From Meridianimarinicoccus zhengii (lineage in GTDB: Bacteria; Pseudomonadota; Alphaproteobacteria; Rhodobacterales; Rhodobacteraceae), in the NCBI RefSeq assembly GCF_003254465.1, contig NZ_QDFI01000032.1:1-46443 (forward strand): 46,443 nt of DNA, in the 5' to 3' direction. The position numbers and the translations under genes were made by a program. Below the pieces are notes generated by a model, which saw only the letters and a list, made by a program, of their open reading frames with translations, ran no database searches and had not been told where the DNA came from. Positions 12,103-46,380 of this stretch are shown piece by piece. Each line of letters begins with the position of its first letter. The first letter of the stretch is position 1.

Positions 12103-12135
12103 GAGTCATACAAGAGTCATACGCGAGTCATATGC
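12103..12135. repeat. Tandem 11-nt repeat array 1 (GAGTCATAYNN x3)
   Basis: Three contiguous 11-mers: GAGTCATACAA, GAGTCATACGC and GAGTCATATGC, followed by a degenerate fourth, GGGTCCGAC. The same unit recurs in arrays at 31661-31693 and 45597-45640. The 11-nt period is about one helical turn, so units face the same side of the DNA. Array 1 lies between two divergent genes, 26 nt upstream of the -35 box at 12162. Confidence 0.85.
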
Positions 12136-12161
12136 GGGTCCGACAGTCGTTTCGGGCCGCC

Positions 12162-12190
12162 TTGACCCCGGCTCGCCCGCCCCGGATAAC
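12162..12190 (+). promoter_or_regulatory. Predicted sigma-70 promoter of the alpha/beta hydrolase gene
   Basis: TTGACC (12162-12167), 17-nt spacer, GATAAC (12185-12190), 27 nt before the ATG at 12218. The elements match 5/6 and 4/6 of consensus with ideal spacing. The upstream 11-nt repeat array would sit at about -60 to -95 relative to the start of transcription. Confidence 0.6.
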
Positions 12191-12217: not shown

Positions 12218-12997
12218 ATGCTGGCCACCACCACCCATGGCGACGCACCCGACAGCGTCCGCCCGCTCCTGATCGTGCACGGCCTATTCGGGTCGGCGCG
12301 CAATTGGGGCGTGATCGCCCGGAACCTTGCCAAACATCGCCGGGTGCTGACCGTCGACATGCGCAACCATGGCGCAAGCGATTGGAAAGAGAGCCATACC
12401 TACGCCGACATGGCCGGGGATCTGGCCGAGGTGATCGACGCCCATGGCGGCACGGCGGACGTGCTGGGCCATTCCATGGGCGGCAAGGCAGCGATGTGGC
12501 TGGCGTTGACCCGGCCCGAAACGGTCGCCCGGCTCATCGTCGCCGACATCGCGCCCGTGGCCTACACCCATACCCAGATGAAGTATCTTCAGGCGATGAA
12601 GGCCCTCGATCTTGATGGCATCACGTCCCGGTCAGACGCCGACCGCGCCCTGCGGCCCGAGGTGCCCGAACTCGCCATCCGGGCTTTCCTGCTGCAATCG
12701 CTGGACGTTGCCGAAAAGCGCTGGCGACTGAACCTCGACGCGCTCGAACGCGACATGGCGGCGATCATGGATTTCCCCGAGACCGAAGCCACCTTCGACA
12801 AGCCGACCCTGTTCCTCGCCGGCGGCACGTCGGACTATGTCCGGCCCGATCACCGCCCGGCGATGCGGCGCCTGTTCCCGAACCACCGGCTCGTCAAGAT
12901 CCCCGGCGCAAACCACTGGCTGCACGCGGAAAAGCCCCGCGATTTCGAAGCCGCGGTCAACGCGTGGCTCGACGCGACCGCCGATCAGGCGTCGTAG
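12218..12997 (+). CDS. Alpha/beta fold hydrolase (YbfF-like esterase)
   Basis: The 259-residue serine hydrolase of the esterase YbfF type has an oxyanion-hole segment HGLFGSARNWG near residue 21, DMRNHGASD near residue 47, the nucleophile elbow GHSMGG near residue 86, an acid in the GGTSDYV region near residue 205 and the catalytic His in GANHWLHAEKP near residue 233. It is expected to act on short acyl esters in the cytoplasm; the physiological substrate is unknown. It overlaps the convergent small membrane protein gene by 13 nt. A predicted promoter and an 11-nt repeat array lie upstream. Confidence 0.88.
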   Translation: MLATTTHGDAPDSVRPLLIVHGLFGSARNWGVIARNLAKHRRVLTVDMRNHGASDWKESHTYADMAGDLAEVIDAHGGTADVLGHSMGGKAAMWLALTRPETVARLIVADIAPVAYTHTQMKYLQAMKALDLDGITSRSDADRALRPEVPELAIRAFLLQSLDVAEKRWRLNLDALERDMAAIMDFPETEATFDKPTLFLAGGTSDYVRPDHRPAMRRLFPNHRLVKIPGANHWLHAEKPRDFEAAVNAWLDATADQAS

Positions 12998-31615: not shown

Positions 31616-31660
31616 CCCGACAGTCCCGGCGCACGGGCGGCGCGGACGCAGGGCATACCG

Positions 31661-31693
31661 GAGTCATACAAGAGTCATACGGGAGTCATACAC
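31661..31693. repeat. Tandem 11-nt repeat array 2 (GAGTCATACNN x3)
   Basis: GAGTCATACAA, GAGTCATACGG and GAGTCATACAC, contiguous and in the same orientation as array 1. The first eight bases after GAG are identical in all three. It lies between the MAPEG gene and thrS, 24 nt upstream of a TTGACA box. Confidence 0.85.
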
Positions 31694-31717
31694 GGGATCG
31701 CGGCCTCGGCGGGCGGC

Positions 31718-31746
31718 TTGACACCGCGCCGCGCCCCGGCCAGAAC
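31718..31746 (+). promoter_or_regulatory. Predicted thrS promoter
   Basis: TTGACA (31718-31723, full consensus), 17-nt spacer, CAGAAC (31741-31746, weak -10), 63 nt before thrS. The layout relative to the upstream 11-nt array mirrors that at 12162-12190. Confidence 0.45.
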
Positions 31747-31809: not shown

Positions 31810-33756
31810 ATGGCGAACGTCACCCTCACCCTTCCCGATGGCTCCCAGCGCGTCTATCCCGGCGGAACGACCCCCGCCGCCGTGGCCGAGGATATCTCCA
31901 AGTCATTGGCGAAAAAGGCGATTTCCGCCAAGGTCAACGGCGCTCACTGGGATTTGCAATGGCCCATCGACGCGGATGCCGATATCGCCATCCACACCAT
32001 GAAGGACGACGCGCAGGCGCTGGAACTCATCCGGCACGACCTTGCGCATATCATGGCCCGCGCCGTGCAGGCGATCTGGCCCGACGTGAAGGTCACCATC
32101 GGCCCCGTGATCAGGAACGGCTGGTACTACGACTTTGACCGGGCAGATCCCTTCACCCCCGAAGACCTTGGTCTCATTGAACAAAAGATGAAAGAGATCA
32201 TCGCGGCGCGCGATCCCGTCCGCACGGAGGTCTGGGACCGCGCCCGCGCCATCGCCCATTACGAGGCGAACAATGAACCCTACAAGGTCGAACTGATCGA
32301 CTCGATCCCGGGCGACGAACCGCTGCGGATGTACTGGCATGGCGACTGGCAGGACCTGTGCCGCGGCCCGCACCTGCAGCACACGGGCCAAGTGCCCGCG
32401 GATGCGTTCAAGCTGATGTCGGTCGCGGGCGCCTATTGGCGCGGCGACAGCACCCGGCCCATGCTGCAACGCATCTACGGCGTGGGCTTCCAGAACCGCG
32501 AAGACCTGAAGGCGCATCTGCATTTCCTCGAAGAAGCCGAAAAGCGCGACCACCGGCGGCTGGGGCGCGAGATGAGCCTGTTCCATTTCCAGGACGAAGC
32601 GCCGGGCATGGTCTTCTGGCATCCCGATGGCTGGACCATCTACCGCCAGCTCGAAGACTACATGCGCCGCCAGCTGGACCGCGACGGCTACCGCGAGATC
32701 CGCACGCCGCAGGTCGTGGACCGCAAGCTGTGGGAAGCCTCGGGCCACTGGGACAAGTACCGTGAAAACATGTACATCACGGAAATCGACGAGGAACACG
32801 CCAACGAAAAGCGCGTCAACGCCCTCAAGCCCATGAACTGCCCCTGCCACGTTCAGGTGTTCAACCAGGGCATCAAGTCCTACCGCGACCTGCCCCTGCG
32901 GCTGGCGGAATTCGGATCGTGCCACCGCTACGAAGCCCATGGCGCGCTGCACGGGCTGATGCGGGTGCGCAACTTCACCCAGGACGATGCGCATATCTTC
33001 TGCACCGAAGACCAGATCGAGGCGGAATGCGCGAAGTTCATCGACCTGCTGTCGCGCGTCTACAAGGACACGGGTTTCGGCACCTTCGACATCAAACTGT
33101 CCACCCGACCCGATGTCCGCGTCGGCAGCGATGCCGTCTGGGACAAGGCCGAAGCCGCCCTTGAAAAGGCGATCCTGTCGGTGCGCAACGATTATGAAGT
33201 CGACCCGGGCGAAGGGGCGTTCTACGGCCCCAAGCTCGACTTCAAGCTGACCGACGCGATCGGGCGCGAATGGCAATGCGGCACGTTCCAGGCGGATTTC
33301 AACCTGCCCGAACGGCTCGACGCCAACTACATCGGCGCGGATGGCGAGAAACACCGCCCCGTGATGCTTCACCGCGCCGTGCTGGGCAGCTTCGAGCGGT
33401 TCATCGGCATCCTGATCGAGAACTACGCGGGCCGGATGCCGTTCTGGCTGGCCCCGCGGCAGGTCGTCGTCGCCTCCATCGTGTCGGACGCGGATGATTA
33501 CGTGCGCGAGGTCGTCAACGCCCTGCAGGCCGCGGGCATCCGCGCCGAGGCCGACCTGCGCAACGAGAAGATCAACTACAAGGTGCGCGAACACTCGGTC
33601 GCCAAGGTCCCCGTCATCCTTGCCTGTGGCGCGCGCGAGGTCGAGAACCGCACCGTCACCGTGCGCAGGCTTGGTGAAAAGGCCACCGTCACCGAACCGC
33701 TGGACGCCATCACCGACACGCTGGCCCGCGACGCCCGCGCACCGGATATCGTCTAG
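31810..33756 (+). CDS. thrS: Threonyl-tRNA synthetase
   Basis: Charges tRNA-Thr. The 648-residue class II synthetase has an N-terminal TGS domain (1-62), an editing/SAD domain (about 70-220, with [13 protein letters not shown] and the [12 protein letters not shown] zinc-like site) and a catalytic core with motif 2 [24 protein letters not shown], the zinc ligand Cys in [10 protein letters not shown], motif 3 [17 protein letters not shown] and a C-terminal anticodon-binding domain (about 545-640). GAGGAGG precedes the ATG. The last three bases overlap the stop of the convergent ArsC-like gene within a CTAG that supplies both stops. Confidence 0.97.
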
Positions 33757-45596: not shown

Positions 45597-45640
45597 GAGT
45601 CCTATGAGAGTCATATGAAAGTCATATGCGATTCATATAA
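45597..45640. repeat. Tandem 11-nt repeat array 3 (four units, TATG variant)
   Basis: GAGTCCTATGA, GAGTCATATGA, AAGTCATATGC and GATTCATATAA, contiguous, same orientation as the other arrays. It ends 29 nt before the DUF1194 start codon. The last unit ends TATAA, which could double as a -10 element (TATAAC, 45636-45641). The rest of the 252-nt gap shows no gene. Confidence 0.8.
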
Positions 45641-45669
45641 CGCCCCCTTTCCCAGAACCGGAGCCGCCC

Positions 45670-46380
45670 ATGCCCCGCGCCTTTCTCGCAGCCCTCGGAA
45701 TTCTCATGGCAACCCAAGGGTTTGCCCAGGACACCGATCTCGAACTCGTGCTGCTGGCGGACGCCTCCGGCTCCATCGACCAGGCCGAGATCGCCTTCCA
45801 GCGCGAAGGCTACGCCACCGCCATCACCGACCCCGAAGTGCTTGAAGTCATTGCCGGAACCGCCTACGGCCACATTCTGGTCACCTACGCCGAATGGGCC
45901 GCCAACCAGGCCGTCGTGGCCCCCTGGACCCTCATAGACGGCCCCGAAGCCGCCGCAAATTTCGCCGATAGAATCCGCACCGGCCCCCGCGGCGCGTTCG
46001 GGCGAAACGCCATCGGCGACGCGCTTCTGTTCGGCAAAACCCTTATAGAAACCAACGATATGGACGGCTGGCGCAAGGTGATCGACTTCTCGGGCGACAG
46101 CGCGAATTCGTGGCGCGGCGCCCCCATGGAGTCCGCCCGCGACACCGTCGTCGACGCCGGCATCACCATCAACGGCCTGCCGATCCTGTGCTTCGACTGC
46201 CCTTCCGGCCGTGCGGGCTCCGGAGATCTCGAATCCCAGTACGAATCCCGCATCATCGGCGGCCTCGGCGCCTTCGTCGTCACCGCCGACAGCCGCGAAA
46301 GCTTCGCGGATGCCGTCAAACGCAAGCTGATCCTCGAAATCTCCGGCACGATGCCCGACCGCGACGTCGCCGCGCGCTAG
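45670..46380 (+). CDS. DUF1194 family secreted protein (von Willebrand factor A-like)
   Basis: The 236-residue protein has a signal peptide (1-19, PRAFLAALGILMATQGFA) and a VWA-like fold. The metal-ion-dependent adhesion site is partly kept as LLADASGSIDQAE near residue 30 (DxSxS), with a GRNAIGDAL Thr/Gly region near residue 115 and IDFSGDSANSW (Asp) near residue 139. The family is found widely in Rhodobacteraceae without established function. The Cys pair in PILCFDCPSG may form a disulfide. GGAG lies 7 nt before the ATG. The 11-nt repeat array 3 is immediately upstream. Confidence 0.83.
   Translation: MPRAFLAALGILMATQGFAQDTDLELVLLADASGSIDQAEIAFQREGYATAITDPEVLEVIAGTAYGHILVTYAEWAANQAVVAPWTLIDGPEAAANFADRIRTGPRGAFGRNAIGDALLFGKTLIETNDMDGWRKVIDFSGDSANSWRGAPMESARDTVVDAGITINGLPILCFDCPSGRAGSGDLESQYESRIIGGLGAFVVTADSRESFADAVKRKLILEISGTMPDRDVAAR

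Follow-up and report, generated by a model that had tools for sequence, protein, structure and literature searches.

The window, the whole stretch of 46,443 nucleotides of Meridianimarinicoccus zhengii DNA (genome G000) that was analysed, carries three arrays of tandem 11-nt units on the plus strand. Array 1 (12103..12147) consists of a G, three AGTCATAYRNR units (12104-12136) and a degenerate fourth unit, GGTCCGACAGT, whose TCCGA core is the dominant one in the related genome G198. It is followed by TTGACC (12162..12167, plus strand), recognised as a -35-like hexamer by sequence inspection, and by an alpha/beta hydrolase gene (12218..12997, plus strand). Array 2 (31651..31694) opens with a degenerate unit, GGGCATACCGG, and continues with three AGTCATAYRNR units; inspection placed a second -35-like hexamer, TTGACA (31718..31723, plus strand), upstream of thrS, the gene for threonine--tRNA ligase (31810..33756, plus strand). 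Array 3 (45598..45641) reads AGTCCTATGAG.AGTCATATGAA.AGTCATATGCG.ATTCATATAAC, and the start codon of the next gene, a plus-strand DUF1194 gene (45670..46380), lies 28 nt on. The exact 8-mer GAGTCATA occurs within array 3 only in the second of the four units, and lone copies of it with at most one mismatch were not in excess in the window (16, vs 11.93 by chance, sd 3.21). The first-pass annotation had placed arrays at 12103-12135, 31661-31693 and 45597-45640, in runs of 3, 3 and 4 units. The coordinates were confirmed, as were the runs, to which one degenerate unit has to be added in each of arrays 1 and 2. It had also described a single orientation, always upstream of plus-strand genes, and no copy within genes; this holds in the window (hydrolase, thrS and DUF1194) and fails genome-wide, where orientation and position vary and where valS and two more reading frames contain arrays.

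The proposal of a dispersed family with an 11-nt period was borne out by the genome-wide counts. AGTCATA-N4-AGTCATA was matched 66 times in the whole M. zhengii genome (37 forward, 29 reverse) and its reversed pattern not once, and a longer two-unit pattern with two mismatches permitted gave 137 matches (control, 0), which shows the arrays to be genuine and far in excess of chance expectation. Among the matches listed for this genome, 39 of 48 runs had 4-5 units (22 with four and 17 with five, the other 9 having 3 or 6-8). Base changes had been said to fall mainly in the last 2-3 positions of the unit, and they are concentrated outside the core. In 19 pairs of arrays from G000 and Meridianimarinicoccus roseus TG-679 (G197), one pairing being doubtful, agreement was indeed higher at the five positions of the TCATA core (93%) than at the variable positions (64%) or in the flanks (58%), the core value being inflated because the pairs were found in both genomes by core-matching patterns. 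One G000 locus (L128) was used twice in this comparison, and without both of its pairs (n = 17) the values were 94%, 66% and 60%. For all G000 x G197 array pairs, the core agreed in 91% and the variable positions in 58%. CcrM methylation sites (G + ANTC) were considered as a constraint on the unit and set aside, as many units were seen on inspection to be preceded by A, not G, giving a partial overlap. In G460, G329 and Poseidonocella pacifica DSM 29316 (G366), the bases 3' of the array often resemble CCGATTTCGG, and the element may extend slightly past the units in these genomes.

The exact pattern was searched for in 196 genomes of the order, with 66 matches in G000, one in each of two others and none in 193 (control, 3 in all); within the genus it was present in G000 (66) and G197 (12) and absent from 5 of 7 genomes. 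A looser three-unit core was matched in 12 of 394 genomes of the family (two matches for the control), with the highest counts in G000 (86), G426 (43), G197 (42), G460 (22), G329 (16) and G366 (10). For G426, which probably corresponds to the MAG CAKZTM01, the loci of that MAG are used here. A sequence profile built from 42 arrays was run against 295 genomes, each from a different genus; 14 were matched at E <= 0.001, and the other 281 were unmatched by this TCATA-type profile under strict filters, with 21 candidates scored per genome. Given the few genomes matched by these two family-level searches, the TCATA type has few carriers, and these are scattered. In 20 stretches from other genera (the beginning of contig 1 in 17 cases), a period scan showed no excess of period 11; three short all-N stretches added one count to every period, and after their removal (three units, 75%) period 11 had 3 hits, period 10 had 3, periods 7-9 and 12 had more and period 13 had 0. 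Presence of the arrays throughout the family was thus unsupported by these 20 stretches. Because 281 of 295 genomes were unmatched and period 11 was not in excess, most of the family either lacks the array system or can do without it. Viral spread was rejected, as a search of viral contigs for the exact three-unit pattern in the dialect of the window gave 0 matches. On contig G133:C1, the array places found with the looser core and the profile lie at 0.76, 0.98, 3.11, 3.24 and 3.54 Mb, all of them outside the 1-3 Mb part of a 4.0-Mb contig; these very few sites are perhaps origin-proximal, if the numbering begins at the origin.

The array inside valS occupies a variable loop of ValS between EMN and a conserved N-K/R-W motif, here called the valS slot. 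This slot was read by script in 23 of 30 loci from G000 and its relatives, and in G329 in addition. It holds AGTCATAYRNR units in G000 and G197, ATTCATATGVA-type units in G329, ACTCCTACAGG-type units in G196, AGTCCGACRAA units in G198, ACTCTTTCATA units in G202, a genome of another genus, and GTGCACGCCCG units, found by period scan, in G217. No array was evident in the remaining readable slots, save for G199, where the slot (L327) reads AGCCATACGCC.CGCCATACACG.CACCAGACGCC. This is possibly a decayed array or another dialect, and the window-type, G196, G198 and G202 units were all unmatched when tested genome-wide in G199.

The units of the valS slot were treated as predictions of dispersed families in the respective genomes. 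For the G198 unit (three copies, two mismatches), a search of 14 genomes gave 64 matches in G198, 2 in G201, 1 in G000 and 0 in the other 11 (control, 0). The G202 unit (two copies, three mismatches) was matched 21 times in G202 and never in 13 other genomes or in the control. In 815 kb of G217, its own unit was found in 7 arrays including that of valS, the reversed unit in 0, and 20 shuffled units in 0-4 arrays each, 8 in all; a looser check on two units, covering 420 kb, yielded 10 hits (4 arrays), vs 4 for the reversed unit. The slot unit therefore predicted a dispersed family confined, or nearly so, to its own genome in three of the four cases (G198, G202 and, within 815 kb, G217), and in these the slot is a reading window for the dialect of the genome. 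The fourth, the G196 type, was searched for as a pair of ACTCCTACA (two copies, one mismatch) in 41 genomes and was not specific to G196 (10 matches), because G000 (9) and G197 (5) were matched too, the 38 others having 0. A clean TCCTA dialect in G196 was rejected, as the arrays of this genome mix TCATA, TCCTA and TCCGA. In a tree of ValS, with the slot removed where findable, G196 and G197 were sisters (99/97) with G000 outside them, so that the TCATA dialect of G000 and G197 marks no clade apart from G196. Overall, and unexpectedly, the carrier genomes each tend to use their own unit. This might indicate a genome-identity signal spread by drive, comparable to the DNA uptake sequences, whose dialects likewise give different words to different genomes in the accessible text of PMC3630211. 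The same text has uptake sequences in thousands of copies, a number not reached by the arrays (66 two-unit matches in G000, 64 in G198, 21 in G202), which occupy tens of sites and are tandem, with 4-5 units, and a signal of this kind is considered very improbable.

The first-pass annotation had asked for a comparison of orthologous upstream regions and held that a lack of conservation there would count against it. Array positions were found to recur at the same loci across genera. By neighbour comparison, an array at leuD was shared by G000, G197, G568 and G133, and one inside valS by G000, G197 and G329. The gltD array was present in G000, G133, G329 and G460 (by eye also in G366), the lpd array in G366, G329, G460 and G568, the serS array in G000, G329 and G366, the rpoA-rplQ array in G366 and G329, and the dppC-dppD array in G329 and G202, while the murB and argG sites recur within the genus. 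The start of lpd lies 23 nt past the array end in G366, G329 and G460, and 26 nt past it in G568, as judged by eye, the gene caller having picked another start. The gltD array was antisense in all four genomes where it was classified; the serS array was sense in two genomes (G000, G329) and reversed in the third, G366. Aminoacyl-tRNA synthetase genes (thrS, valS, serS) recur beside or around array sites in G000, G197, G366 and G460, and genes that we take, by eye from the protein sequence, to be leuS, metG and hisS also lie near arrays.

Sites were shared between dialects as well. Among 21 array loci of G198, those at valS, murB, argG and a chorismate-mutase-like gene also bear arrays in one or more of G000, G197, G196, G329 and G366, and a fifth locus has one neighbour in common with a G196 array. 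Five of the loci compared for G202 (n = 15) coincide with array sites of other carriers, namely those at valS, lpd, dppC-dppD, a dehydrogenase pair, and a LacI gene together with the gene convergent to it; a sixth has one neighbour in common with a G197 array (the names dppC-dppD, LacI, chorismate mutase and dehydrogenase are presumptive, being assigned from the look of the protein sequences). Two or three of the five shared G202 sites were flipped, whichever strand of the unit is taken as forward, in a comparison in which the loci were not re-oriented and orientation was hand-corrected via the strand column. The forward strand of the G202 dialect is uncertain, because AGTTATGAAAG, the reverse complement of its unit, is closer to AGTCATACAAG by hand count than the forward form is.

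The position relative to genes was classified for 143 arrays in 13 genomes, namely those with a profile score >= 30 in 158 loci, the weaker ones being dropped; G366 contributed 9 arrays from 21 regions, and the G000 arrays are those among the matches listed. Tandem-gene gaps held 83 arrays, convergent gaps 25 and divergent gaps 19, 7 were in frame and 9 at sequence ends, although some of these classes may be wrong because the gene caller was crude, with codon scores from eight window genes. Arrays antisense to both neighbours occur as well. In tandem gaps, 61 arrays were sense vs 22 antisense, and all 7 in-frame arrays were sense, which may be because an antisense TCATA-type array of three units contains, by sequence reasoning, TGA in every frame. 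The in-frame arrays, of which those inside valS and within genes at L106 and L124 are examples, are copies of the kind that the first-pass annotation had listed among the findings that would count against it. Its picture of upstream regulatory sites in a fixed orientation was not supported, given the arrays in convergent gaps, the antisense sites and the copies inside valS. The class proportions resemble what we would expect of ordinary intergenic space, and this argues against a simple promoter role.

The arrays could be operators of one OmpR/PhoB-type response regulator controlling a regulon. The 11-bp direct repeats and the GTCATA core do resemble a Pho box, two of the window arrays precede -35-like hexamers, and the thrS arrangement is kept in G197, where the orthologue of array 2 likewise has four units at an identical spacing from TTGACA (23 nt). 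At the site of the TTGACC that follows array 1, the hexamer is TTGACA in G196 and G197, in which the arrays are present, and was not seen in G200. It is also TTGACA in G198, G199 and G201, where the array was not seen, and this persistence of the hydrolase hexamer counts against operators, as do the 25 convergent and 7 in-frame sites among the 143, the core of TCCGA in G198 and of GTGCAC in G217, and the membership of the linked genes in unrelated housekeeping pathways. A promoter operator of one regulon is weakened by the convergent, antisense and in-frame sites, and such a regulon is judged improbable.

The sense excess between tandem genes (61 vs 22) would be in line with an element acting at the RNA level, on the 3' end, translation or stability. 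When 10 arrays were folded as RNA, z ranged from -2.59 to +1.67 without a common hairpin or fold, and a shared hairpin was rejected even though 3 of the 10 had z < -2.3, a point in favour of an RNA element. The antisense gltD array of the four genomes where it was classified is a further difficulty, as is an Rfam search of 10 loci (the window lay outside this search), which returned one tRNA and no family at the arrays. An RNA-level element is accordingly considered very unlikely. The first-pass annotation knew of no named regulator or repeat class with this pattern; no Rfam match was found at the arrays in the 10 loci, and no description in the literature searched.

Units with the cores of other genomes lie at array edges. 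Among the 48 G000 runs in the matches listed, TCCTA or TCCGA was found in the first unit of 15 of 48 and in the last unit of 10 of 48, and in the third unit from either end in 5 of 48. On inspection, some G366 arrays have GTGCAC, the word of G217, at the left edge. These edge units look like the remains of a word replaced from the middle outwards; relaxed constraint at the edges would fit the pattern as well. Between-unit linkage of the variable positions was weak in G000 (z 3.7), G198 (z 4.4) and G329 (z 2.7) and was not found in G197 (z 0.0) or G460 (z -0.6), which indicates that the arrays are mostly not recent clones. In G000, G197, G460, G329 and G366, the copies share little past a few array-adjacent bases, and the flanks of the G198 and G202 arrays look unrelated by eye. 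Recent cloning of whole arrays was therefore rejected as a general explanation on the grounds of weak or absent linkage, with the exception of MAG CAKZTM01. In most of the 20 copies listed for this genome (L043, L045, L048, L051, L081, L084, L089, L093 and others), the array sits centrally in a repeat of well over 100 bp that hardly differs from copy to copy, with TTAACC bordering it to the left and GTTAA...GATTCG to the right, which looks like copying. The left part of this repeat, TTAACCAAGC TTACCAAACCC TCACCGAACGC, is itself approximately 11-bp periodic. A similar frame was observed at L272, L274, L275 and L276 of G366 and at L271 of G361, where GTTAA words border the array on one side or both and some loci have a downstream GATTCG, the flanks otherwise differing.

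An array repeat that copies itself would be copied or converted among preferred sites (by recombination, template switching or an enzyme), would be homogenised to the latest unit, and could flip. Its merits are that the unit differs in concert across whole genomes (G198, G202, G217), that orientation varies at shared sites (serS in G366 vs G000 and G329; the two or three flipped sites of G202), that the CAKZTM01 array sits within a near-clonal repeat and that units are weakly linked in G000, G198 and G329. The scarcity of shared flank, the unlinked variable positions of G197 and G460, the narrow array length and the viral contigs without a match to the exact three-unit pattern are not what copying leads one to expect, and a self-copying repeat is regarded as rather unlikely, although it can be combined with a role of the arrays in protein binding.

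The reading tentatively preferred, with a little less than even confidence, is that the arrays are binding platforms of 4-5 helical turns for a putative protein with drifting specificity. Each array would be a landing platform that varies rather little in size, 4-5 units (44-55 bp) being usual, with one unit per helical turn, on which a single oligomerising DNA-binding protein per genome would assemble. This protein would recognise one unit at dozens of places, most of them intergenic, independently of promoters and in part independently of orientation, and may act like a nucleoid- or chromosome-organising factor. Its binding specificity would drift fast and the sites would follow, giving each genome its own 11-mer dialect at inherited places, with units of other dialects remaining at the array edges. 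Cooperative binding by one protein fits the 11-bp period, the narrow number of turns, the conserved core with freer spacers and the recurring sites, and a chromosome-level role fits better than a regulon because the arrays are independent of promoters. The counts against zero controls, the weak or absent linkage between units, the spacing at lpd and the other-dialect units at array edges are further points in favour. The arrays, their period, the positional classes, the shared sites, the dialects and the edge units are observed; we infer that a protein is bound, that the likeness of the units is due to selection and not to copying, and that the arrays serve an architectural and not a regulatory purpose.

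Several observations count against binding platforms. Point mutation and selection alone hardly explain the rewriting of dozens of sites within a genus, and point mutation cannot turn an array round at a shared site; that the word differs in concert and that arrays are flipped is better fitted by copying than by binding. The sense excess in tandem gaps is not predicted by a purely architectural role. The clonal copies in CAKZTM01, the lack of a clean dialect in G196, the 281 of 295 unmatched genera, the missing period-11 excess in the 20 stretches and the inflated core agreement of the G000/G197 pairs also weigh against platforms. What the genome-specific words at many shared places point to is an undescribed DNA-binding or repeat-copying system. 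A wider formulation, possible if on balance doubtful, is an as yet undescribed genome-wide marking system of the Rhodobacteraceae, with chromosomal addresses (the valS slot, lpd, leuD, gltD, murB, serS and others) at which the word would be replaced in concert, in either orientation, as lineages diverge, the agent being a writer that acts in trans or a binding protein of altered specificity. If this is true, related bacteria keep many chromosomal addresses and yet rewrite the word at all of them, and it becomes a testable question which trans-acting factor sets the word and why the sites of one genome must agree. The arrays could thereby reveal either a chromosome-organising protein whose specificity evolves fast or a short repeat able to spread without the help of palindromes.

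Several known systems share part of this anatomy. The Pho box and other operators of the OmpR-PhoB family have direct-repeat half-sites at 11 bp with a GTCAT core, and the arrays resemble them in being direct repeats of 11-bp period with a GTCAT-like core. Unlike the Pho box, the arrays do not keep their core among relatives (TCATA, TCCGA, GTGCAC and the ACTCTTTCATA type), and they lie in convergent gaps and coding sequence, as placed by a crude gene caller, and beside unrelated housekeeping genes. REP/BIME and other intergenic repeats and the Rickettsia palindromic elements are palindromic, dispersed, mostly intergenic, lineage-specific and occasionally in frame. The arrays are likewise dispersed, mostly intergenic, lineage-specific and occasionally in frame, and differ from these elements in being direct repeats, with no common hairpin in the 10 that were folded. 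Searches of the open full-text literature listed no description of the arrays, subscription journals being mostly beyond its scope, so that absence from print is unproven.

The nearest descriptions found are the uptake-sequence dialects (PMC3630211) and the TAACTGA repeats (PMC4679880), neither of which, in the accessible parts of these papers, has the anatomy of the arrays. According to the former, the DNA uptake sequences of the Neisseriaceae are a dispersed short signal with species dialects, and the arrays are comparable as a dispersed short signal that varies among related genomes, with G196 mixed. The uptake sequence is described there as one short word that occurs singly, thousands of times over, and has a known role in transformation, unlike the arrays, which are tandem, with 4-5 units, and occupy tens of sites. 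The TAACTGA direct repeats of marine Beggiatoaceae are, in the accessible part of PMC4679880, one heptamer in 7-nt steps, common to several phyla and placed mostly directly before start codons in the genome studied. The arrays are similar to them as dispersed, mostly intergenic short direct repeats with a sporadic distribution across taxa and no known mechanism. They differ from the TAACTGA repeats, as far as that text describes these, in showing no clear preference for promoters or starts, and in their 11-bp period, their genome-specific units and their recurring sites.
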